Position numbers and translations under genes: made by a program. A stretch of DNA of 64,000 bases, taken from contig CP084620.1 in the NCBI GenBank assembly GCA_025917655.1, forward strand, positions 186,001-250,000. The letters run 5' to 3'. Shown here in pieces: positions 17,771-58,290 of this stretch. Origin of the DNA: Chlorella sorokiniana (taxonomy: Eukaryota; Chlorophyta; Trebouxiophyceae; Chlorellales; Chlorellaceae). Below the pieces are notes generated by a model. The model made no database searches. It was not told where the DNA came from and saw only the letters and a program-made list of their open reading frames with translations. Positions within the stretch are counted from its first letter, which is position 1, and the number at the start of each line of letters is the position of its first letter.

Positions 17771-18115
17771 CCGGCACAGCGCCCACACTCAGTGGAGAAC
17801 ACAGAGGCGCTGATGGCGGCAGCCGTTGGGCGCCAGCACAGACCGCCGCTCACCCCCTCCCCCTCCTGCCTGCACGCAGGACAACCGCCGAGCCTACCGT
17901 GAGCTGTTTTACACCGCCCCCATTGGGCAGGCAGGCATCAGCGGTGCCATCATGTTCAAAGAGGCGCTGGGGCAGAGCGCCTCCGACGGCCGCTCGTTTG
18001 TGGAGCACCTGACGGGGCAGGGCGTGCTGCCGGGGTCAAGGTGGACGAGGGCCTGGTGCCACTGGAGGGCTGCCCAGGGGAGACCAGCACGCGCGGGCTG
18101 GACCATCAGACCCTA
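17771..18115 (+). pseudogene. FBA: class I fructose-bisphosphate aldolase, 5' fragment
   Basis: Unmistakable piece of class I aldolase: SVENTE, then (after an intron of about 85 bases that would begin GCGCTG and end at the acceptor before 17881) DNRRAYRELFYTAPIGQAGI, SGAIMFKEALGQSASDG, VEHLTGQGVLPG, and after a one-base repair at the G run near 18033, KVDEGLVPLEGCPGETSTRG followed by LDHQ. It stops matching at GLDHQ, where no donor site is seen and a minus-strand gene ends on top of it (18106). The C-terminal half of a class I aldolase lies on the same strand at 29353-30226. Either the gene is split by an insertion or giant intron, or this is a truncated copy. Confidence 0.75.
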
Positions 18116-20250
18116 GCGCTGCCGCTTGGCCGGGGGCGCTCGGCGCGCCTGGCCGGCTTGTCGGCCGGCGCCTTGCGCTTGCGGCCGTCCGGGCGCCAGT
18201 CCAGCATGCCATGGTTGCTCACGTCCTTGTGCGCAATGCGCGTGTCGCCCTGGTAGCTCAGGACGGCGTGCTCCACGTTGTTGAGGCCGGTGAGCGTGGC
18301 CCTGTTGCATTGTATGGCGGAGCCCAGGTGCACGCCGATGACACCGGCAGGGCGGGGGCCAGCGGGAAAGTGCCGTGGACCTGCAGCGCGGGCGTTGGCA
18401 GTACCAGGCGTGAGCCAGCGGGCAGGGCGCGGCCGATTGCGTGCAAACTGCCTGCTGTCGGCGCCGGCGCGGCAGGAAGGCCTGCATGCAGTCACCCGCC
18501 TGCACATGCGTGCCTGGCTGGCGGCCTTGATCAGCATGATGGAGCCATCGCGGATCGGGGCCTGCACTCCCGCCGTGGCGTTGAAGAAGCCGCCCCGCTC
18601 AGGCCAGAGCAGTCACCTGCAGGCGGGGGTTGCGGCGGGGGTTCGGGCCCTAATTGAGCCCGCCATGTGGCTGGGTCTGCGGCTGGGCACGCTAGCCTTG
18701 CGCAGGGGTCTAGGGCACCTACTGTCATCCACTGGATGTGGGCGAAGCCAAGGTCCCTAGCATCGAGGTGCGGGTTAATGTGCCATCCGGGCCCATCGTC
18801 CCTGCACGGCGGCGCGAGGTGTCGGAAGGAGCGCGTGTGCAAAGATGGAGCGGCGCGGCCCGTGGCGCGGCGCCCCTTGCCACTCTTCTGCTGCTGTCGC
18901 ACCCGTGTACATCACAAAAGCGATGACAGGCCTGGGATTGCCCACGGCCCAAAAAGAAGACGCCACGCACACAGAGAAGGAGAAAGAGGGGGGAAGGGGG
19001 CTCGTCGACATGTCACACTCACACTGTGATGGACTGGCTGAGGTACGGCGTGCCCCCATGGACTTGGCCCCGCCGCCGTGCTCCTCGTGGAAGGAGTCCA
19101 CCTGGGATGCCATCAGGCCCGGCAGAATCGCCCGCGCGACGTAGAACTTGGCTTTGGCGCACTCATCTCCGATGCGGTGCACCTCCCGCAAGGGCGTCTT
19201 GCCCTTGGCGGGGCGCAGCCGCAAGGAGGGGCCCGGCCACGCCAGCAGCAGGCCCTGCGAGGGCGCGTACACCGGCTTTGCCCTCTTCCTGCACGTGGGC
19301 GGGGGGGGGGCTATCGCTGGGGGAGGGCGGGAGCGGGCTGGCTTGGTCCGCCCTGCCTGCTGCGCGCAGTGGCAAGGACGGATGCGGGTTTGCTGCCCAC
19401 CTGCCATACGCTGGGCCCGTCTTGCCAGACTGTGCGCTGCGGACGAAGCCGGTGTTGTGGGTGGGGGCCTTGCCCTCGCCACGCGGATCCGGCCTGACGT
19501 TGGCGGCCAGCAGCGCGTGCATGTGCACCAGCCAGGCGTAGTCCGCCTCCGTCCAGTAGAGCCGCGCCAGCGGGCCGGGGATGAAGACCGAGGTGACGGC
19601 GGTGCAAATGGCGCGGGCGGCATTGTTGGCTGTGCGCGCAGCACGCACTCGCGGCTCATCCACAAAAATGGACAGGAATGCAGACTCTGCTGTTGTCCAC
19701 GTCGCGTCAATCGGCACCAGTCTGTCCCTGTCTGGCATGACGCCCTCGCCATCGTGCAGCAGAGGGGCGCCCGGCTGTCTACCAGGTGACTGGTGTCGCA
19801 GCCTCGCTGCACAAACACGAGGGCATGCCGCCGCAAACGGGGGGGCAGCCCAACCTGTGGCGAGGGTGGGCAGCGAGGGGGCGCGTCAGCGGGCGAGAGG
19901 GCGAGCCCACAAGGCCGCGGCAGTGGTGTCCGAGTCACCAACACGGGGTGATGGAACATGGGCACACTGCGCTGCCTTTCAAGCGCGCTGCCGCCGCCGT
20001 CGCCCTGCGCCCGGCATGCCCCGCGGCTCACCGCGTCCAGCACCTCCTCCCGCTCCTCCGGCGACGCCAGGGCGAGTTCTTCGGGCAGCCTCCCAGTTGA
20101 CATTTGGCCGAAAAGGCGCTGGGCCGCCGTGATAGTGCCGGGCGCAAGTCCAGCTGTCAGGAGCAAGGCTCGGGAAGGGAAGTTCGCCTGCGTCCGGCCT
20201 TTGTTCCGCCTGTGGACCTTCGCCAAGTGAATCTGCAGCTTAGTGGGCAT
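18106..20250 (-). CDS. uncharacterised multi-exon protein
   Basis: I do not recognise this protein. Exon 1 (20250..20032) starts MPTKLQIHLAKVHRRNKGRT and contains SPEEREEVLDA before a GTGAGC donor. Later exons carry HALVFVQRGCDTSHLVDSRA, then (after a one-base repair near 19765) RLVPIDATWTTAESAFLSIF, YWTEADYAWLVHMHALLAAN, PVYAPSQGLLLAWPGPSLRL, then HRIGDECAKAKFYVARAILP, a segment with RPVIAFVMYTG, and a C-terminal part with TGLNNVEHAVLSYQGDTRIA, SNHGMLDWRPDGRKRK and a basic tail that could be a nuclear localisation signal. Internal exon limits are uncertain. A piece of the gene (about 18890-19012) recurs at 58556-58662. It sits inside the antisense block between the two aldolase halves. Confidence 0.5.
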
Positions 20251-20684
20251 GTTGTGACGGAGTTCAGGAGCTGACAAAGGGCCGGGAACGCCAGAGACAG
20301 CGCCCGGCGCTGAGAACGAAAGTGATTAAACGGTGCACGATTCAGATCTAGGACAGGCTTGTGCGTTTCGCCACCTGTGCGACAAAGCGCCAGCTTGGCA
20401 ACCCCGCTCTTGGCCTGTATGGAGGCAGCACCATAGAGGCCCCTAGTTTCCAAATGAATCGGCCTCGGGGGTTCATAAGCTGAGGGATGACCTTGTGCAG
20501 GTGTGCGTTACACGCGGTTTCAGATTGTAAAGCTGAAGGAGGCGGGGGAAGTGAGCTTATCATTCGGTTAGCAGGCTGCTGAGAGGTGCCCTGCAAGCGG
20601 AAAGGGCGGGTGGGGGAGGTGAGCGACATGCGCAGCCTGTGGCACAGCCTGCCAGCGGAGCATCGCCCTGAAGGGTGCACTCAC

Positions 20685-21206
20685 CCGCGGTGCAGCGCGG
20701 ACTGGTGGTTGATGCACTGGAGCAGCTCGTGCAGTGTGAGGCCAACCGAGTCCTCCACCCACAAAGCGTTGCGCGGGCCCTGGCCGGCCTTGGTGGTGTT
20801 CCTGCCCGCAAACTGCTCCAGAGTGGCGGCAGCGCTGCCGTCGGTGGGCTGCAGCGGCCCATGCTTCTTGCCGGTCAAGTTCGCCGCAGCCCCGGTAGTA
20901 TTCACCAGCTTGATACCTGCAAGGGGACAGTGGGTCGATAGGGGCGGCAAATCAGGCGGGCAGAGGCGACGTCAGTCGCACCCAGCACTTTGTGCAACCC
21001 AACAGGTGGAGGCAGCCGGGCATCCGCCCAGCGGCAGCGCTCGCCTGCCAGGCTGGGAAAGCCCAAAACAAACTGCCTGGCGCCCATGACGCCATCAGTG
21101 GCCATGGGATAGCGGTGCGGGCGCTGCGGTCCTGGCGGATGCGGCTGCGCAGGTAGTTGGTGAGGCGGGCGCGGTCCTCTAGGGTGGCAGGGGCAGGCGG
21201 CGACAT
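20685..21206 (-). pseudogene. truncated paralog of the 23.4-28.7 kb gene (first two exons only)
   Basis: Starts MSPPAPATLEDRARLTNYLR, directly comparable with MPPPPAAIREDRARLTGYAR at 28712, and continues through TDGVMGARQFVLGFPSLAG and GIKLVNTTGAAANLTGKKHG, LEQFAGRNTTKAGQ, LTLHELLQCINHQSA. The large gene has the same modules as GIQLVSKSGAKATMTGKLHG, LEQFAGRNTTKAGQ and LTLHELLQLMNHEAV. After a GTGAGT donor near 20685 no further homologous exon follows, so the copy looks truncated. In both copies the frame of the first exon changes at the same place (see findings). Function unknown. Confidence 0.55.
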
Positions 21207-21404
21207 CGTCGAAGCAGCAGTGTTGCCAATATCTGCGCAATCAAGAGGCGAAAGGGGCCCAAGTGGCAGCAGCGGAGAGTGAAGGAACCTGCGCTGCGGG
21301 CGGCCTACAGCAACCTTGCCGCCTCTGCTTTGAGGGCCATTGCCTGACGGCTGCGTACTTGCCTGGATCTGCGGTTGGGCTGTCTAAAGCGCGGCGCAGC
21401 GGAC
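20685..21404. repeat. segmental duplication, copy 1 (partner 28195-28921)
   Basis: The similarity covers the first two exons and about 200 bases upstream of the start. The upstream part shares GCCTACAGCAACCTTGCCGC, CTTGCCTGGATCTGC and GCGCGGCGCAGCGG in order with the partner. Limits are by eye. Confidence 0.7.
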
Positions 21405-21934
21405 AGGTGCGGCTTTGGGCGGCTTTTCTTGAACTCGGGGCGGTCAATAGGGAAGTCGTTGCCCGATTGGGGAGAGCGGGGAGTCAGAGGAGGCACTTTG
21501 ACCTAATTGACAGACGAAAAAAACTTAAATGCTGCATGGACCCCGCTGTGTGCTACGCTCCGCTGCGCCGCCTGCGCCGCATTGGGGGCCTGCCTGAGGC
21601 ACCGCAGGCTTGCGGGATGGGCTGCAAGCACTGTATGTGTGTGATAAGGACAGGGCAGAGGCTCTCAATCTTGCACAGGTGCAGTCGAACCTGCATCTGT
21701 CACCGCCATCACCACGGGGCAGCGGGCAGCGTGGGGTGGACGGCTGCCCCCAAACCAACCGCAAGGCGCTCACATGCTACCGAGTGCACAGCCCCAGCCC
21801 ATTGTGCCCTGGATGCTCGCAAGCTGCTAGCTTGATCCGAATGGACGGCTACGGGTATGGTCTTACAGTCGACAGCAGATAAATCACTGGATGCGGTGTA
21901 TGCGATTGAGCAAGGGCGAGCAAAGAGGTGACTG
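21405..21934. other. no gene seen
   Basis: About 530 bases between the duplicated promoter and the LINE-type repeat. A long plus-strand open frame covers it but has no family features and runs through the duplicated non-coding part, so it is probably not a gene. Confidence 0.4.
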
Positions 21935-22245
21935 GTGACTGGTACAGAGGCCAGGCGCGGTAACGCGCTGGGGACACACAGCAGTGTATCCCACTTGCTC
22001 CAGTACAACATCTAAGCATCGCAGGCGGGCGGGCGGGCAGGGTTGTAGGCACCGGCGCAAGCCGGGGATCGGGCGCAGAGGGCGGTAGGGGAGCGGAGGG
22101 CGCCTGGGAGCACACCCAAAGCGCCGCGAGCGAAGCAAATGACACAGGAAGGCGGGGAGGCAGGGCGCCGGTTACGCATGTGGGCACCATCGCACGCCAC
22201 CGCAGGGCCGCCAGCACGGGTCAGAGAGGGGATGGAAGGGGGAAA
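21935..22245 (-). mobile_element. LINE-type 3'-end fragment, copy 1
   Basis: About 300 bases homologous to 55565-56114 and 57785-58290, sharing CTGGGGACACACAGCAGTG, ACAACATCTAAGCATCGCAG and GCGCCGGTTACGCATGTGGG in order. One end begins with a short tandem motif (GACTGGTGACTGG), as in the other copies. The 55.6 kb copy lies directly downstream of reverse-transcriptase-like sequence on the minus strand, so I read this as the 3' end of a 5'-truncated minus-strand retroelement. Confidence 0.6.
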
Positions 22246-22479
22246 GAGACAAACATTTGGTTGAATAATCAAGCGAGTAACACAGGCGGCAAGGTTCGTA
22301 TTAAGATAGATAGAAGATAGGGACAGAAGCCAGGATTGCGGCAGTGGATACGGTGTGAAGTGCCAGGCTGGCTCCTGCGTCCGCGACGCCACTTGGCCAG
22401 GCGGCGCGCGCCGCCGGCTTACTTGGCGGCAGCTCGCGCAGACGGGCAGGGATGAATTCAAAGGCGCACGACTACTGTG

Positions 22480-22980
22480 GGCCAGGGAAGAACATAGTAC
22501 GGACGGTGGGGACGGACAGGTATGAATATAGCGCACTAGGGTAAGGATTTAGAGGCTGGAGCCGGGGCTCTGCGCATGGGGGTGGGTCCAAGGGCGCATG
22601 GCAGGGATAAGAAGTGCGCTCAGGTACAAGGCAGTGATGAAAATAAGGGCGCCCGCGACAAAGGGCACGGCTGGATGCAACGCGCTCCGCCAAAGCGAAT
22701 CGGGGAGAGCATACCGCGCTCGGCGGCACAGGGCGGGGAAGGGCATGGTGCGCTCAGCGACGAGAGGCAATGCCGATTATATCGCGCTCAGGTAAGAAGG
22801 GGCAAGGGAGGCAGTAAGTGGGCTCCGCTACGAATGGCAGGGAAGAAGGCAGTGCGCTCAAGCAGGGATGAACAAACACGGGGCGCATTGCGGCAAGGGT
22901 ACGGATGGATGTATTTCGCTCTACTACTAATGGCAGTGGTGATTAAGATCAGCTACAAATGGCAGGGAAGAGCATAGAGA
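22480..22980. repeat. degenerate minisatellite, period about 31-37 bases
   Basis: A GCGCTC-like core recurs roughly every 31-37 bases (near 22616, 22650, 22681, 22718, 22751, 22786, 22821, 22855, 22886 and 22918), separated by purine-rich spacers such as AGGTAAGAAGGGGCAAGG and ATGGCAGGGAAGAAGGCAG. The units are diverged. No gene is evident. Confidence 0.65.
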
Positions 22981-23364
22981 AATAGCCTCAGGAGACTGTA
23001 AAGCCCGGGGTGATGGCAGGCAAAAGGCGATGATCCCTCGATAAGGCGGGGGGCCGAGCAAGGCTCGCGCCGGCAAGCGGGGGGGCAAGCCGCACGGAGG
23101 GTAGGGTAGCCGCCACGCTCACCGCTGCTGCTGCTACTGCAGCTGCTCCCCTGGAGGTGTGCATGGGGGCAGGCCCAAACGTTGACAACAGCGCACGCCG
23201 CCTCCGTGTGCTAGTGCGATCACCCAATCCCAGCAGGTTGCGCAGAGGAGGGAGGGGCTCACCTGCGGCAGCATCAGCGACAAGGGGATGGATGTGTGCA
23301 CGGGGCCGACTTGCGCAGCCACGCCAACCGGATGCAGCTCAAGCAACAAACCACACATGCGTGC

Positions 23365-25202
23365 TTACATTAGCTGTCGCCTTTGCTTTTGCCCCAGCTT
23401 CTGCAGCTTGGCGTCGTCCGCCACCTGCACATGCGACTGGGCCGCCTGATTCATGTCCTGCACCACGAGGGAGGCGAGGGCGGCAGTTGGGGAGGAGGTG
23501 GCATGCGAGATCGGAAACCACAGTCTTCACCGTAAGCGCAACAGAGGACGGCCGATCAGCGCAGCGTGCGGCTCACCAGTGGCCTAAGCACCCGCTGCTG
23601 GTGTGGCGCCTCCTCAGGGGACTCCTCCTCAGGGCTGCAATCTATGTATATCACCTGGGGGGCCGCTCGGCCTGCCGCTGCTGCTGCTGCTGCTGCTGCA
23701 GAGGCGGCGGGCCGCCGCCGCCGCCGGCTTGGCCTGCGGGGCGGCGCCAGCGTCCTGCTGCTGTTGTTGCTGAGGCGGCGTCGGCAGGGCTGCCGCCGCT
23801 GGCGGCTTGGGCGGCGGGGCGGGCGGGCGATGCCGGCGTTCTGCCACAGCAGCTGCAGCACACTCGGCTGGTCTGGCTTGGAGGCGGCGGCCTGCTGCTG
23901 CTGCCGCTTGCGGGCCGGGCAACCGCCGGCTGGGCCAGCTGGGCGGCGGGGGCCAGCCCCAGCCACGGACGGAGAGACGCAGCGGCTGCCGGCTTGGCGT
24001 GCTTGGCGGCGGCGGCCTGCTGCTGCTGCTGCTGCTGCCGAGGCGGAGGGGCCGCCGCCGCCGCCGGCTTGGCCTGCGGGCGACGCCAGCGTGCTGCCAC
24101 AGCGGCTGCAGCACACTCGGCTGGTCTGGCTGGGCGGCGGCGGCCTGTTGCTCCCGCTGGCGGAGAGGCTCAGTGGCCGCTGGCTCTGCCTGCTGGGCGC
24201 CCGCCGGTTGGCGGGACACCCCTGCCACGTCCCCTGTTGCTGCCGCCACTGGTGGCTTCCGGTGGGGAGTCCTCCTCGGAGTCCTCCTCGGAGCGGGAAT
24301 CCAATGGCAGATATGCCTTTTGGGGGCGTCGCGCTCGCGGCTGGCGGCGTCTGTCAGGAGGGTCCTCCTCGGAGCCGGAATCTATCAGAGAAGCAGTCCG
24401 CTTGCGGGGACCGGGCAACCGTTGGCTGGGCCCGCTGGCGGAGAGGCTCAGTGGCCGCTGGCTCGGCCTGCTGCGCCCCAGCCGGCTTCCGCAGCAACTG
24501 CTGCAGCACCATCGGCTGGGCGGCGGCGGCCAGCTTGGGCGGGCCGGGCGGCGGCTGCTGCTGCTGGCGGAGAGGCACAGCGGCCGCCGTCTTGGGCTCG
24601 GCGGCGGCAGATTGCTCCTGTTGCTGCTGCTGCGGCGGCGGCGGCGGTGCGGCAGCGGCAGACGGCCTGCGCGGCCCGGCGGCAGTTGCCTCCTCCTGCT
24701 TCCGCGGCTGAGGGGTGGGCGGGGGGTGGGCGGGGGGTGGGGACGGGCGCACGGCGGTCACCCTACACCCTTGGGCAAGGAACATGCTGGAACCAGCGCG
24801 CTTCTGGCGGCAGCTGCCACGCGCCGGCCGATGCCGCGTCAAGCTGCGATCCTGCCCAGCTGCCCTTGCACCCGCTACATCTCCCGCATGAGCAGCCTCA
24901 CCAGGCCCAGGCGGAGTGGGGCGGGCTCCCCGTCGTCCCGCGTTGCGCCGCGCTCAGGGTTGGTTGAGGTGTGGCTCGCCTGCGACTGCAAGGGGTGCGT
25001 GCCGGAGCGTGCGGATGAGTAAGCAGTAGAGTAGGCAGGCGGCAGCAGGAACAGAGGCGCCCCATGCAGGCCAGCAAGATGAGTGTGAGCGGTGCCTAAC
25101 AGCCTGCAAAGGCACCAGCCCCAGGCCTGCCCTGCCCGCAACCCACCAGTTGAGGCGGCGGGGCCGCCGCCGCCGCCGGCTTGAGCGCCGGGCGGGGCCA
25201 GC

Positions 25203-25244
<42 letters not shown>

Positions 25245-28200
25245 AGGTGGCGGGGCCGCCGCTGTCACCAGCTTGGGCGGCTTGGGCGGCAAGGCGGCGC
25301 CAGCGTGCCGCCGCAGCAGCTGCTGCAGCGTCGGCTGGGCCGCCTCCGCCGGCGGCTTGGGCGGCCCGGCCGCAGTTGCCTGCTCCTGCTGCTGCGGCTG
25401 AGGGATGGGCGGGGGGTGGGGACGGGCGCACGGCGGTCACTCTACATCCTTGGGCAAGGAACATGCTGGAACCAGCGCGCTTCTGACGGCAGCTGCCATG
25501 CGCTGGCCAAACCGCGCCCTTGCACCTGCTGCCTCCCCGCATGAGCAGCCTCACCAGGCCCAGGCGCTCTGGGGCGGGCTCCCCGTCGACCGAGGTGGCG
25601 CCGAGGTCGGGGTCAATCCCTTCGTGGCTCGCCCGTGACTGCAAGAAATGCGTGCCGGAGCGTGCGGATGAGTAAGCAGTAGAGTAGGCAGGTAGGCAGT
25701 AGGAAGGCAGGCGGCAGCAGGAACAGAGGCGACCCATGCAGGCCAGAACGCTGAGCGTTGCCCAGCAGCATGCAAAGGCACCAGGCCCTGGCCTGCCCTG
25801 CCTGCAACCCACCGGGATGCGCGTGAAGCTTGGTTGTCCGGAGAAGCCCTGCGGGAAGGTGACCTGGAAGTGCGGCATGCGGCTGCCAAACTCTGTGGCC
25901 GCCAGCTGCTCCATGCGCCAGCTCGGGTAGTTAAGGTACAACACCCCGGTCATGGTGGCGCTGGCCAGCAGGGTGCGGGCCAGAGCGGCGGCTGCTGCGG
26001 GCGAGAACGCATCGGTGCCCTCCTCTGGATGCGGGTTGTACCGCACACAGCAGTACTGTCTCAACGCCGTCACCGCGTGCGGCCGGTCACGCAGCTTGAC
26101 AACGGCGGCTTTGCCCATGCGCCATATGCGCTCGGTCTCCGCCTCAGCTGGGTACCCTTGGTGGTACCATTCGTCAATCTCCAAAACGACCACGTAGCGG
26201 CGATCCCCGGTGTCCTTCACCAGGATGGCGTCGCAGCGAGCGCGGAACGCACGGTTGCCGTTAGGCCCCGGGTGCACGCACTGCGCCTCGAAACGGCTGT
26301 AACCTCGCGCTCGGGCGTTCGGCGATGCCGGCCGCCTCGATGGCCTTGAAGAAGGCGGTCTCGTGCGTTTTATGCGAGTGGGTTTGGCCGCTGGCGGCAG
26401 GCCGCGGGGCATAGTCGTAGCAGGCCAGCTGCTCCGCCACCTGCGCAGCCAGCTCTGCCACGGAGGAGTCGCGGCGCTCCAACAGCTCCAGCTGCTCGGG
26501 GCTGCAATGGGCGAGGAGGGCGCAAAGCGCATGGCATGCTCAGCCCATGACAGCGGGCATGGGCCACCAGGCCCCCACAACCAACACAAACAACCCACCC
26601 AGCTGGAAACCGCCAGGCTGGCATGGTATGAGCAAGACCTGCCAGGGCCTGCACACATCACCCGCCCGGAGAGCAGCAGGCAGCGGCAAAGCATCCTGTG
26701 CACCCACCCATCTTGCGCAGCAGGCTCGAGTTGGCCACCGAGAGCAGCTCCGCCAGGGTGTACGCGCAGCCTTCGATGGCCACGCTGTGTGTGGCGCCCC
26801 AGAGGCTGTCATCACTCCGCGTTGCAAATTGCCTGAAAGTCGCGTCAAAGGTGACGCCGCCGGGGCCCTTCACGTTCAGCACGCCGCCGCTGCGTCGCCC
26901 GTTGAGCACAGCGGTCTGCTCGGTGATGAGGTTGACCACTGGCAGGCCTGCAAAGGCGGGGGTGGGAAAGGGGGCGGGGTATGTTGATGGAGGGATTGGC
27001 GCGCCAGTAGGCAGGCTGGCAGCACAAGCGGGCACCGGAGCGAGCAGAAAAACTGCCATGAGCCCGCATGCTTGTTTACCCTTCAGCTTATGGGTTCCCA
27101 GCACCAGATTGACGTCGATCTCGGCGTCGGGCTCCGGCAGGACCCCCGCTCTTTGCCGTCGGACCTGCGCAGGCGGGGCTGCGCCAGCGTCCTGCGTCGC
27201 AGGGCCGCCACCAGCGCCGGGCCGTCGCCGCTGGTGCTGCTGCTGAGGGCGGAGGCCGGCGCCTGCATGGCGAGCGCATGGCGCAGCTGCGCCGCCTCCG
27301 CTGCGCCCTCCGCCAGCTGGCGCAGCTGGTCGGGGTCTGCATGCGGTGGGTGAATGGATGTGAGGGATACGAGGCGCGGGACAGGCTGGGAGCAGAGCGG
27401 GCAGCGGCAGGGGCAGCGGGGCCGCCAAACGCCCGCTGACCGCCCCTCTCGCCCACCCGCGTTGAGCAGGAGTGGATGGTTGACAACGTCCAGGAGATCC
27501 TGAGCCGTTGCGCCATCCAGGCCCTCTATCCAGAGCAGGGAGGTGGCCGGGTGGCCCACCCTTTTGTTCGGCATAAACTTGGCCAGGTTGGTGAAGTTGC
27601 CGTCGGCAGTGATCAAAGTGCCGTGCTTGAGCGGCCGGTTAGCCGAGCGGTGGCGCCGGTGGACTGGCTGATGAGGCCGAGGCCTGCAGGGAGAGGCGGC
27701 GTGGGCGTGCATGACTGCTTGTAAACGCGATTGGCAAGTGTAGCAGAGCAAGAGCATTCAGGCTGCACAACGGCCCCACAGCCGCAAGCCCTAGCCCCCA
27801 TCCTGACAGCTCACCGACCAGTTCAGGCACACCCAGCCAGTGGATGGTCTGGAATTCCATGTCATTGGGGGCATCCCGGCCCTCGCCAGCTTGGTGGCCA
27901 GCAGCTGCAGGCGCATCGATGCCCCCACGCGCACCAGGTCGTTGCCCAGGCGGGCGCACAGGTCGTGACCCGTCACCGGCTCCTCGGGCTGCAGCGCCGC
28001 CGCCAGCTCAGCCGCCTCGCCGTTCTCCAGCTGCTCCAGCTGCGCCATGCCTGCAGCGCAGAGTAGGGCAGGGCAGGGGAGGAGGTAGGAGATTAAGATG
28101 ACTATGCGCAAAGGGCTGCCTGGCCAGCACTGGCACGGGGTTGCGTGGCTGCAGCGCACCAGCGGCCACCAGCACCCAGCTGGGTGCACTCACTCGCAGA

Positions 28201-28712
28201 GCGGACGGCCTCGTGGTTCATCAGCTGGAGCAGCTCGTGCAGCGTGACGTCTGAGCCCTCCACTGTCACGTTGTGAGCCGTGGATTGGCCGGCCTTGGTG
28301 GTGTTCCTGCCCGCAAACTGCTCAAGCGTGATGGCGGCGCCGCCGTCGTTGGGCAGCAGCGGCCCATGCAACTTCCCGGTCATGGTGGCCTTAGCACCAG
28401 ACTTGCTCACCAGCTGGATGCCTGCAAGGGGACAGGGGGTTGAGAGGGTGAGCAATGCAGGCGGGCAGCGGGCAACGTCAGCCGCACCCAGCATCCTGTA
28501 CAGCCAGACAGCTGGAGGCAGCCGGGCGCCCAGCAGGCGGCAGCGCTCACCTGCCAGGCTGGGAGAGCCCATGAATTGGCAGACGCCAATCACGCCATCA
28601 GTAATGGGCATAGCATGACGGCGCGGGCGCTGCGGTCCTGGCGGACGCGGCTGCGCGCGTAGCCGGTGAGGCGGGCGCGGTCTTCTCGGATGGCAGCAGG
28701 CGGCGGCGGCAT
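23365..28712 (-). CDS. large novel protein: repeated LTG/NH modules, nuclease-like domain, Gln-rich repeats, SIM-like acidic motifs
   Basis: No known full-length homologue comes to mind. The start MPPPPAAIREDRARLTGYAR at 28712 is followed by repeated modules of about 80 residues, one per exon: GIQLVSKSGAKATMTG ... LHELLQLMNHEAV; GLGLISQSTGATARLTG ... DLLDVVNHPLLLN; GLPVVNLITEQTAVLNG ... ELLSVANSSLLRKM. Helical spacer exons lie between (MAQLEQLENGEAAELAAALQ; PDQLRQLAEGAAEAAQLRHA). Next is a domain with FRARCDAILVKDTGDRRYVV, VLEIDEWYHQGYPAEAETER and CVRYNPHPEEG, like PD-(D/E)XK/Vsr-type endonucleases (Asp, then Glu-x-Asp-Glu). The C-terminal third is Gln/Ala/Pro-rich with repeated QPSVLQLLWQNAG-like units and acidic motifs (VIYIDCSPEEE). 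The last exon is DMNQAAQSHVQVADDAKLQK, ending before TAA at 23365. Several frame repairs are needed. One gene or two cannot be settled. Confidence 0.55.
24700..25810. repeat. tandem duplication of about 0.65 kb (copies near 24700-25150 and 25380-25810)
   Basis: Both copies share in order CTTGGGCAAGGAACATGCTG, GGAACCAGCGCGCTTCTG, CATGAGCAGCCTCACCAGGC and GAGTAAGCAGTAGAGTAGGC at offsets of about 655-680 bases. Each copy holds an intron plus a Gln-rich exon with the LQQLLRRHAG-type unit, so the duplication is part of the growth of the Gln-rich region. Confidence 0.8.
25204..25244 (-). repeat. CTG/CAG triplet tract coding poly-Gln
   Basis: An uninterrupted run of CTG on the plus strand, read as CAG (Gln) in the minus-strand gene. 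Shorter runs of the same triplet occur near 23670-23700 and 24010-24040. Confidence 0.9.
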
Positions 28713-28921
28713 CGTGCAACCCGCGGTGCTGGCGATTCCTGCGTTATCGTGACGCTAAAAGGACTCAAAAGGCAGCGAGGGGTGAGCGGTGGGGGAGAGC
28801 GAAGGACCTCCTCCGCGAGGAGGCCTACAGCAACCTTGCCGCCCCTGCTGTGCCCCGCATTGCCCGTCCGCTGCGTGACTTGCCTGGATCTGCTGCTTAG
28901 GTGTCAAGAGCGCGGCGCAGC
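28195..28921. repeat. segmental duplication, copy 2 (partner 20685-21404)
   Basis: Carries the promoter and first two exons of the large minus-strand gene. The similarity stops near 28921, just before the stretch that leads to the aldolase 3' half. Confidence 0.7.
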
Positions 28922-29352
28922 GGCCTGCAGCGCGGAGCAGCGGCTTGAGCGGCGTGTGTGGAGAGGGCAGGCCAGTAGCGGAGCTGGTGCACGATCGGGG
29001 CCAGGAGGGGGCCCTGGGAGCCATCACAAGCGATACGGGAAATGGACACTCAAATGTGCGGGCGGTCCATGCATGGCTGCAAACCCTGCTGTGCGCTGTG
29101 CGCCGCCGCGCTGGCTCCCAGCCCGACAGGCATGCAGGCGTACAGGCATGCAGGATGGGTCGCAGGCGGGCTGGACTGGACGACTATGCTGCCAGGAGGG
29201 GTCGCAGGGTCAGGTGCGCCAAGCGCCCAGAGCGCCCGGCAGGGGAAAGCAGCGGCGCGGCGCAGAGGGAGCAGCTTAGGCTGGCAGTCGCACTGCCGCG
29301 TGTGTCCATCTTACCCTGCGCACTCAGCATCTCGCACCCGTTCCCGGCCCAG
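28922..29352 (+). other. stretch before the aldolase 3' half; possible decayed aldolase exon
   Basis: No intact gene. At about 29022-29100 one plus frame reads [10 protein letters not shown], faintly like the GARFAKW segment expected in aldolase at this point, but the match is short and the rest of the exon is not recognisable. Confidence 0.25.
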
Positions 29353-30226
29353 GCGGCTGGGCTGGTGCCGATCGTGGAGCCGGAGCTGCTGATCGACGGC
29401 AGCCACGACGCGGCGGCGTTTGCCGACGCCTCGACGCGCGTCATCCAGCGCTGCGTGGCGCACCTGTGGCAGAAGGTAGGCGCGGCAGGCTGGCGGGCGG
29501 CTCACACCTGCTGTCGCTGCTTTCTGGCCTGCTTGCTGGCGCCACTGCGCATGCACACGTTTTTCTGCGTGGCAGGTTTGGAAAGGGGAGCCACCACCGC
29601 CGTCGTGGCCCTGGCCGCAGGGGTGCTGTTGGAGGGCACCCTGCTCAAGCCGCAAATCATCATCCCAGGCGCGGACTGCAGCGGGCCCCGGCCCAGCCCC
29701 GAGGCGGTGGCGCAGCACACGCTGCGCGTCATGCGCCGCAGCGTGCCCGCCGCCATCCCCGGCATCATGTTCCTCAGCGGCGGCCAGGTGAGGCCTGCGC
29801 TCGGGCCGGCGGCTGGCTTGGCTGCCGGGTCCCCTGCACGTGGGCGACCAGCAGGTTTGCTCCTTTCGCCCGGCCCGAGGCGCCGCCGTTTGTTGGTGCG
29901 GGGCCGCAGACGGAGGAGGAGGCGACGGTGAACCTCAACGCCATCAACCGGCTGGCGCAGGCGGAGGGCCGCGCGCCCTGGTCCCTCTCCTTCTCCTTTG
30001 GACGCTCCCTGCAGGTGCTGCTGCGGCGCCGCAGTGGGCCCTAGCCGGGGCAAGCCGCACGCCGAGCGCCTGCAACTTTCTGTCCGCTGAAGCTCGCGCC
30101 GCAATGCCCTGTTTCGTGCTGCGATCCGCGCAGGCCAGCGTGCTGCAGCTGTGGTCCCAGGACCGCCAGGGCAACGCTCAGCGCTGCCGCGACATGGCTG
30201 CGGCGCAGCCCTCGGCCGCCAGGTAA
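29353..30226 (+). pseudogene. FBA: class I fructose-bisphosphate aldolase, 3' half
   Basis: Four exons: 29353..29475, 29621..29787, 29910..30014, 30134..30226. They read [100 protein letters not shown] and ASVLQLWSQDRQGNAQRCRD, ending at TAA. This is the conserved C-terminal half of class I aldolase and includes the EPE and SGGQ phosphate-binding segments. Splice sites are good, but exon 2 needs one extra G at its acceptor. The usual C-terminal Tyr is not seen. The matching N-terminal half is about 11 kb upstream on the same strand. If the intervening block is a giant intron, the gene could be functional; otherwise these are two pseudogene halves. Confidence 0.75.
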
Positions 30227-57784: not shown

Positions 57785-58290
57785 CTTGACTTGACTGTTA
57801 CAGAGACCAGGCGCGGTAACGCTGGGGACACACAGCAGTGCATCCCACTAGCTCCGGTACAACATCTAAGCATCGCAGGCGGGCGGGCGGGCAGGGTTGT
57901 AAGCACCGGCGCAAGCCTGGGGATCGGGCGCAGAGGGCGGAAGGGGAGCGGAGGGCGCCTGGGAGCACACCCAAAGCGCCGCCAGCGAAGCAGCAGACAC
58001 AGGAAGGCGGGGAGGCAGGGCGCCGGTTACGCATGTGGGCACCATCGCACGCCATTGCAGGGCCGCCAGCACGGGTCAGAATGGGGATGGAAAGGGGGAA
58101 GGCAGGGCCCCGCAGCAAGGCAGCAGCAGGCCGCTGACAGCCATGCGACGCAGCCCGCCCGGCACAGTAGCCGGGAGGCGGCCAGACGGGCGGGCGGAAA
58201 CGACACAGGGCAGGCAGGGGACACTGAAGCGTCATGCAGCAGGTCAGGCAGGAGAGGAGCAGAGGGGACCAACTGTAAAGGAACGAGATG
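57785..58290 (-). mobile_element. LINE-type 3'-end fragment, adjacent second copy
   Basis: Same sequence as the 3' region of the preceding element (CTGGGGACACACAGCAGTGC to CCAACTGTAAAGGAACGAG), in the same direction and directly upstream of it. Its 3' edge is a TTGAC tandem (TTGACTTGACTTGACT, 57782-57798). It lacks the 75-base insertion present in the 55.6-56.1 kb copy, so the two inserted separately. Confidence 0.65.

Follow-up and report, generated by a model that had tools for sequence, protein, structure and literature searches.

Introduction

Nucleases of the Vsr type are known chiefly in bacteria and viruses. MTES_1575 has been described as a REase with a Vsr fold (PMC3710099). Phage and viral DUF559/MTES_1575-like proteins (L018-L024, L043, L050 and L054) carry an E-[IVC]-D-E-x2-H core and an R-[FYV]-N-P-[HE] ending, and the same core and ending are encoded by a gene in a 64,000-nucleotide stretch of the Chlorella sorokiniana genome, referred to here as the window (C4:186001-250000; the genome comprises 38.8 Mb in 15 contigs). 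In this gene, a nuclease-like domain follows a series of repeated modules, and this combination is a real and unusual domain pairing. None of the titles and abstract openings returned by our literature searches was on a gene of this kind. On balance, we lean towards the view that the gene belongs, as a relic or a barely intact copy, to a small nuclease gene family with an unnamed module, a family that was duplicated at the DNA level and whose copies are mostly decaying.

Gene layout, repeated modules and tail

The gene runs on the minus strand from an ATG at 28712 to 23365, and comprises exons for three modules, two linkers and a nuclease-like domain, followed by a tail (Table 1). The first-pass annotation had read exon-encoded repeated modules, and this stands: GT/AG exon borders can be traced by eye to 23365, and the three modules are similar to one another. 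The layout of the first exon recurs in the partial copy at 20.9-21.2 kb, with the frame change at the same place.

Table 1. Positions in the window of the gene, its exons and the features of the interrupted aldolase
Feature	Positions	Strand	Basis
5' piece of damaged aldolase duplicate	17806..18103	+	88.7% DNA identity to C12 aldolase, 300 columns
11-bp direct repeat, left copy, flush with the junction	18093..18103	+	Junction comparison
11-kb stretch replacing ~123 bp of an aldolase exon; contains the gene, the partial duplicate and other fragments	18104..29165	.	DNA comparison
Partial duplicate of the gene's 5' end (upstream region, head, module 1)	20652..21402	-	75.8% to 28159-28923
Gln/Pro-rich tail	23365..25638	-	Translation, motif counts, DNA self-comparison
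Nuclease-like exon: HETAFFKAIEAAGIAE, RCDAIL, VVVLEIDEWYHQGYPAEAETER, CVRYNPH; frame change near 26300	25812..26503	-	Translation, motif searches, alignment, model
Module 3 (M3) exon, AVLNG ... VANS	26709..26948	-	Translation, module comparison
Second linker exon, frame change before module 3 lead-in PDAEIDVNLVLGTHKLKG	27083..27335	-	Translation
Module 2 (M2) exon, ARLTG ... VVNH, one internal frame change	27456..27682	-	Translation
Linker exon, MAQLEQLENGEAAELAAALQ..., ends in module 2 lead-in after a frame change	27813..28050	-	Translation
Module 1 (M1) exon, ATMTG ... LMNH	28192..28419	-	Translation, module comparison
First exon: Arg-rich head, then module 1 lead-in in another frame	28554..28712	-	Three-frame translation
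11-bp direct repeat, right copy, where aldolase homology resumes	29166..29176	+	Junction comparison
3' piece of damaged aldolase duplicate	29176..30206	+	82.1% DNA identity to C12 aldolase, 1090 columns, from 29209; 29176-29208 by local alignment

The modules are three related units of about 75 residues each. M1 resembles M3 (z = 10.0, a score reached by none of 500 shuffles), and the second part of M2 (27456-27622) resembles both M1 (z = 5.1, 0 of 500 shuffles) and M3 (z = 4.2, 1 of 500). Each contains a turn (hTG or LNG), an F and a strand with V-E or I-E, and ends in T-x2-[ED]-L-L-x3-N-[HS]. They had been described as LTG/NH modules; the N-H or N-S near the end was found, but the literal LTG occurs in M2 only, M1 having MTG and M3 LNG. 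The module has no name in any library that we searched. The best match of a module profile to PDB sequences has an E of 0.11, and structure prediction for the module reached a mean pLDDT of 52 and a pTM of 0.37. The linker exons are helix-like. At the amino acid level, M1 is 64% identical to its partial copy at 20699-20917, M2 is 51% identical to a relative on contig C7, and M3 is 57% and 52% identical to relatives on C3.

The Gln-rich tail, also noted previously, is present, with five Q runs of at least five residues and four QP(x)1-3LQxL motifs spread across three frames. It further contains three hydrophobic-acidic motifs, which we take to resemble SUMO-binding motifs, and is partly made of a unit of ~540 bp that is duplicated at 76%.

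The nuclease-like domain

The nuclease-like motif, E-I-D-E-x2-H-x2-Y-x4-E-x2-R, lies at 26.2-26.0 kb. An extended pattern, E[IVLFC]DE..H.{4,14}E..R.{10,40}R[FYVI]NP, composed post hoc with the motif already known, has a single match in the six-frame translation of the window and none in 100 shuffled 64-kb sequences. When the shorter motif was translated into a DNA pattern, it matched seven stretches in IMG/VR, and all seven encode R-F-N-P-[HE] in the same frames, although this ending was not part of the search pattern; three of the seven proteins are identical and most of the others are close, so that the independent cases are few. Three of the seven were run against Pfam, and all three match DUF559 (PF04480) above its cut-off (E 1.7e-7, 6.5e-8 and 4.6e-6) and MTES_1575 below its cut-off. 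A search for loci related to the phage proteins gave eight, including a phage relative (L043) that reads R-Y-N-P-H, as does the window domain. A second pattern matched five stretches. The core was found in L050 and its 68% relative L054; the matches in L051 and L053 fall in long proteins lacking it, and that in L052 falls in a frame of 20 residues. L050 matches BRO-N, and also MTES_1575 at an E of 0.016, below the cut-off.

Aligned with four phage cores, the window domain retains the E-x-D core with its H and a later R-x-N-P-type strand, and 14 columns are invariant in the five sequences. Pairwise similarity to the phage proteins is weak, with an E of 0.002 by BLASTP, as a single comparison, and a probability of 3% with an E of 0.014 by hhalign. 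The spacing from the D to E-x-D is ~17 residues in the window domain versus ~10 in the phage proteins.

Profile searches with the nuclease exon gave no meaningful family match in Pfam, PHROGs, PDB sequences, PADLOC or NCBIfam. Neither PF04480 nor PF18741 matched the exon even at an E of 10, and PF04480 had no match in the whole genome, nuclease exon included. Searched against PDB sequences, the domain alignment matched the endonuclease-like 3hrl at an E of 0.0064, perhaps owing to the phage rows of the alignment, and the other 12 matches had an E of 0.2 or worse. PADLOC searched with the window domain gave no match; the candidate defence model PDLC04717 of that collection was matched by the N-terminal half of a phage protein, L018 (E 1.7e-8). 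A protein search of IMG/VR with the domain led to two stretches that matched a pattern, of which none was confirmed, and tblastn of the phage collection returned two records (E 0.6 and 2). A pattern with a GAAATH start and a longer gap matched no stretch. Two candidates were discarded: an H-x2-Y-x-C pattern matched one stretch (L037), whose listed open frames of at least 100 residues encode no such protein, and a domain match at C9:729134-729409 (E 0.037) contains a stop, lacks the motif and is taken as chance.

An AlphaFold2 model of the nuclease exon, built from five sequences, has a mean pLDDT of 58 and a pTM of 0.64. It places strands at residues 73-77, 86-90, 93-98 and 101-109, a helix at 119-138, a strand at 149-155 and a helix at 168-183. 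The resulting order, a-b-b-b-b-a-b-a, fits the PD-(D/E)XK expectation roughly and at low confidence; the pLDDT is below 50 at residues 55-89 and 95-101, where the first strands lie. In Foldseek searches of the PDB, the best match was an unrelated protein at a non-significant E of 0.036, followed by EcoO109I (E 0.043, probability 0.25) and FokI (E 0.093, probability 0.21). Viral matches begin at an E of 0.0036, and several of them come from giant viruses.

The first-pass annotation had proposed a Vsr or PD-(D/E)XK core for this exon. This proposal is partly sustained: the motif-matched phage proteins hit DUF559 and the model order roughly fits, but no profile names the domain and the Foldseek matches are weak. 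The exon might instead encode an unrelated alpha/beta domain in which the motif arose by chance, as the non-significant profile and fold matches, the E of only 0.0064 obtained against PDB sequences and the low-confidence model would allow. We regard this as quite improbable given the length of the motif (E-I-D-E, H, E, R and R-Y-N-P), its absence from the 100 shuffled windows, the R-Y-N-P-H of the phage relative and the rough fit of the strand and helix order. The Vsr/PD-(D/E)XK reading is supported as the best available for the core, and the motif search, the DUF559 matches of the phage proteins, the model order and the viral fold matches, taken together, make it likely that the exon encodes a Vsr-type nuclease domain.

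State of the reading frame

About six frame changes fall in ~2 kb within 28712-25812, near 28630, 27865, 27620, 27150, 26500 and 26300, and the tail, too, spans more than one frame. The continuous protein that had been envisaged was therefore not recovered, as no single undamaged product is readable. It is possible that the gene is nevertheless a functional host gene, acting in DNA repair or in defence against algal viruses, and that its frame changes are assembly indels only. Indeed, most of them lie, by eye, in or beside single-base runs, and translation of the exon frames shows no stops except behind frame changes. The GC content over the three codon positions also has a coding pattern, both in the nuclease exon (0.62/0.50/0.81) and in M3 (0.62/0.50/0.85), and dN/dS between the window and its C3 relatives is 0.45 for the nuclease and 0.45 and 0.40 for module 3. 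Between two C3 module copies, dN/dS is 0.55; stop-containing codons were left out of all C3 comparisons. In addition, three of the five aldolase genes, the window's own included, change frame within an exon, the other two being those on C8 and C12.

Other genes of the same assembly speak against this reading. By eye, an in-exon frame change was seen in one pair among 63 exon matches of HSP70 and in none of 64 of Cpn60 (two of the latter contain stops), as against about six in ~2 kb here; these control counts come from overlaps of exon matches in different frames and understate frame changes. Moreover, M1 and its partial copy have diverged almost evenly over the codon positions (18/15/18 changes, dN/dS about 0.69), as would be expected if at least one of the two copies were free of constraint. 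An intact, functional gene thus seems doubtful to us, although it deserves to be taken seriously. We favour a window gene that has decayed or is decaying; assembly errors may contribute to its frame changes, since three of five aldolase genes share this feature.

The interrupted aldolase and the relatives of the gene

The split aldolase around the gene was confirmed, with two pieces found by BLAST, the right one of which extends to ~29176 by local alignment. Judged by DNA identity, the window copy of the aldolase duplicates that on C12 and is damaged. Between its pieces, 145 bp of the C12 gene are unmatched by BLAST; local alignment, in which homology is back at 29176, leaves ~123 bp of the C12 exon missing. 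The frame changes within the exons of two other aldolases (C8:645574-645850 and C12:1021065-1021444) represent either assembly errors or further damaged copies.

The 11-kb insert is a mosaic of a C1-like fragment, the partial copy, a high-copy repeat of ~318 bp and the gene. Its segment at 19821-20275 is 88.8% identical to C1 DNA. The minus strand of 18110-20325 holds pieces of another gene, with no Pfam match in its one long frame scanned and with an 83-residue stretch that has relatives on C1 (86%) and C5 (52%). Of the 70 matches listed, 64 fall in the ~318-bp interspersed repeat (21928-22246) and are mostly 90-95% identical; its copies are scattered and clustered on C1, C2, C6 and other contigs, and another lies in the window at 57787-58101. 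No Rfam family or tRNA was found in the window.

The relatives of the gene found by protein and DNA searches, in lists that are lower bounds, lie in the window at 20652-21402, on C3 near 4.159-4.162 Mb and on C7 near 2.406 Mb. They are 65-82% identical at the DNA level and are partial or rearranged, and no near-identical second copy of the gene is among the matches listed. The partial duplicate that had been reported within the window was verified, 20652-21402 matching 28159-28923 at 75.8% identity. On C3, the 5' flank, module 2, module 3, the nuclease exon and tail pieces follow one another on one strand in the order of the window, with gaps where the window has module 1 and its catalytic part (25996-26392). 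Pieces of module 3 and of the catalytic part are also present in inverted orientation next to this relative (C3:4159300-4162450, L015), and one catalytic piece lies further on. The best catalytic piece on C3 reads E-C-S instead of the E-I-D of the window, and E-x-D is thus lost. On C7, module 2 runs straight into a short piece of the nuclease that lacks the motif. The remaining DNA matches listed are short or lie within the low-complexity tail.

The gene had been put forward as a mobile or selfish element, and one could imagine an element, active or once active, whose nuclease cut its target and which was then copied into the aldolase gene. A nuclease-like core, a partial second copy within the same aldolase interruption and relatives on two other contigs agree with this idea, as does the 11-bp direct repeat, which abuts the insert on either side and resembles a target-site duplication. 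The 11-bp word at the left junction has one further occurrence in the insert, precisely at its right junction (29166-29176), and an equally good match was found in 11 of 200000 random pairs of places in the window. This repeat speaks for an insertion event. It may be a target-site duplication or the trace of microhomology repair, but the 123 bp missing from the target beside it are a better fit to microhomology repair, or to a separate deletion, than to a target-site duplication. Several further observations argue against an element: its relatives are few, diverged and partial or rearranged; the parts of the insert have different relatives, on C1, C3 and C7; no terminal inverted or long direct repeats were found in the 60-, 300- and 600-bp ends of 18104-29165, which have no more in common than an exact word of 12 bp that lies away from the ends; and no transposase, reverse transcriptase or recombinase Pfam domain was found in the insert pieces scanned, which cover part of the frames. 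The mobile-element case is therefore weak, and we hold a selfish element to be distinctly unlikely. A homing endonuclease gene was rejected, as the host gene is not left complete, part of the aldolase exon being missing relative to C12.

Discussion

We return to the decaying gene family as our preferred explanation. The family would be small, with copies found at three genomic locations. The ancestral protein would have begun with about three repeat units in a row, each consisting of a helix-like linker and a ~75-residue module, followed by a Vsr/DUF559-type PD-(D/E)XK nuclease domain and a tail rich in Gln and Pro that looks disordered. The modules and the tail may have brought the protein to its target, where the E-I-D-E/H/E-R core would have cut or nicked DNA. 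The family probably spread by DNA-level duplication, since intron and 5'-flank sequence is common to the copies, and most copies appear to be decaying. That in the window probably survives as a relic or as a gene that is only just intact. It lies among duplicated fragments, which form a mosaic within a spare copy of the aldolase, and its location would result from rearrangement and break repair, although the 11-bp flanking repeat would also suit an insertion. A bolder proposal, which we consider unlikely, is that of a new eukaryotic family in which a virus-type, Vsr-like nuclease was steered by the repeated linker and hTG/NH module and by a SUMO-binding-like tail against foreign or damaged nuclear DNA, and which is now decaying here.

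From a biological perspective, if the gene were intact in related species, it would represent a eukaryotic branch of this nuclease class, paired with a new domain, and would be a hint of genetic exchange between algae and algal viruses. As found here, it is mainly a small decaying family, of modest importance unless intact orthologues exist. It also calls for caution, as lying inside a disrupted host gene does not by itself make a nuclease-like gene a mobile element.

Compared with known systems, the window domain has roughly, as predicted, the secondary-structure order of the Vsr mismatch endonuclease and MTES_1575 and carries the acidic/His motif of their class; it has no profile match to either. 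The fold search points to viral proteins: D2TFP8, M1HGT3 and M1HSV2 (the latter two presumably chlorovirus proteins), and C2H2-type proteins of Hyperionvirus, Harvfovirus and Pithovirus LCPAC304, which align over 153-192 columns at 14-25% identity with a probability of 0.63-0.99. An unnamed Harvfovirus protein at Foldseek rank 2 has 9% identity. With an E of 0.0036-0.072, and none at or below 0.001, these viral proteins are leads only. Three of them are annotated with C2H2 fingers, whereas none was seen in the window protein.

The closest likeness in domain order is to the phage and viral DUF559/MTES_1575-like proteins introduced above, in which the nuclease domain is C-terminal, behind a putative binding part, as in the window gene. 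Their N-terminal part is ORF6N-like or BRO-N (ORF6N was matched below its cut-off in one of the three phage proteins tested, and BRO-N in L050), whereas the window gene has repeated modules instead. The window domain is 19-22% identical to the four aligned phage cores; the stretch that precedes its E-x-D is longer, and it has 16 extra residues from the H to R-Y-N-P-H. Finally, the window gene adds to the arrangement of these phage proteins a Gln-rich tail and introns.
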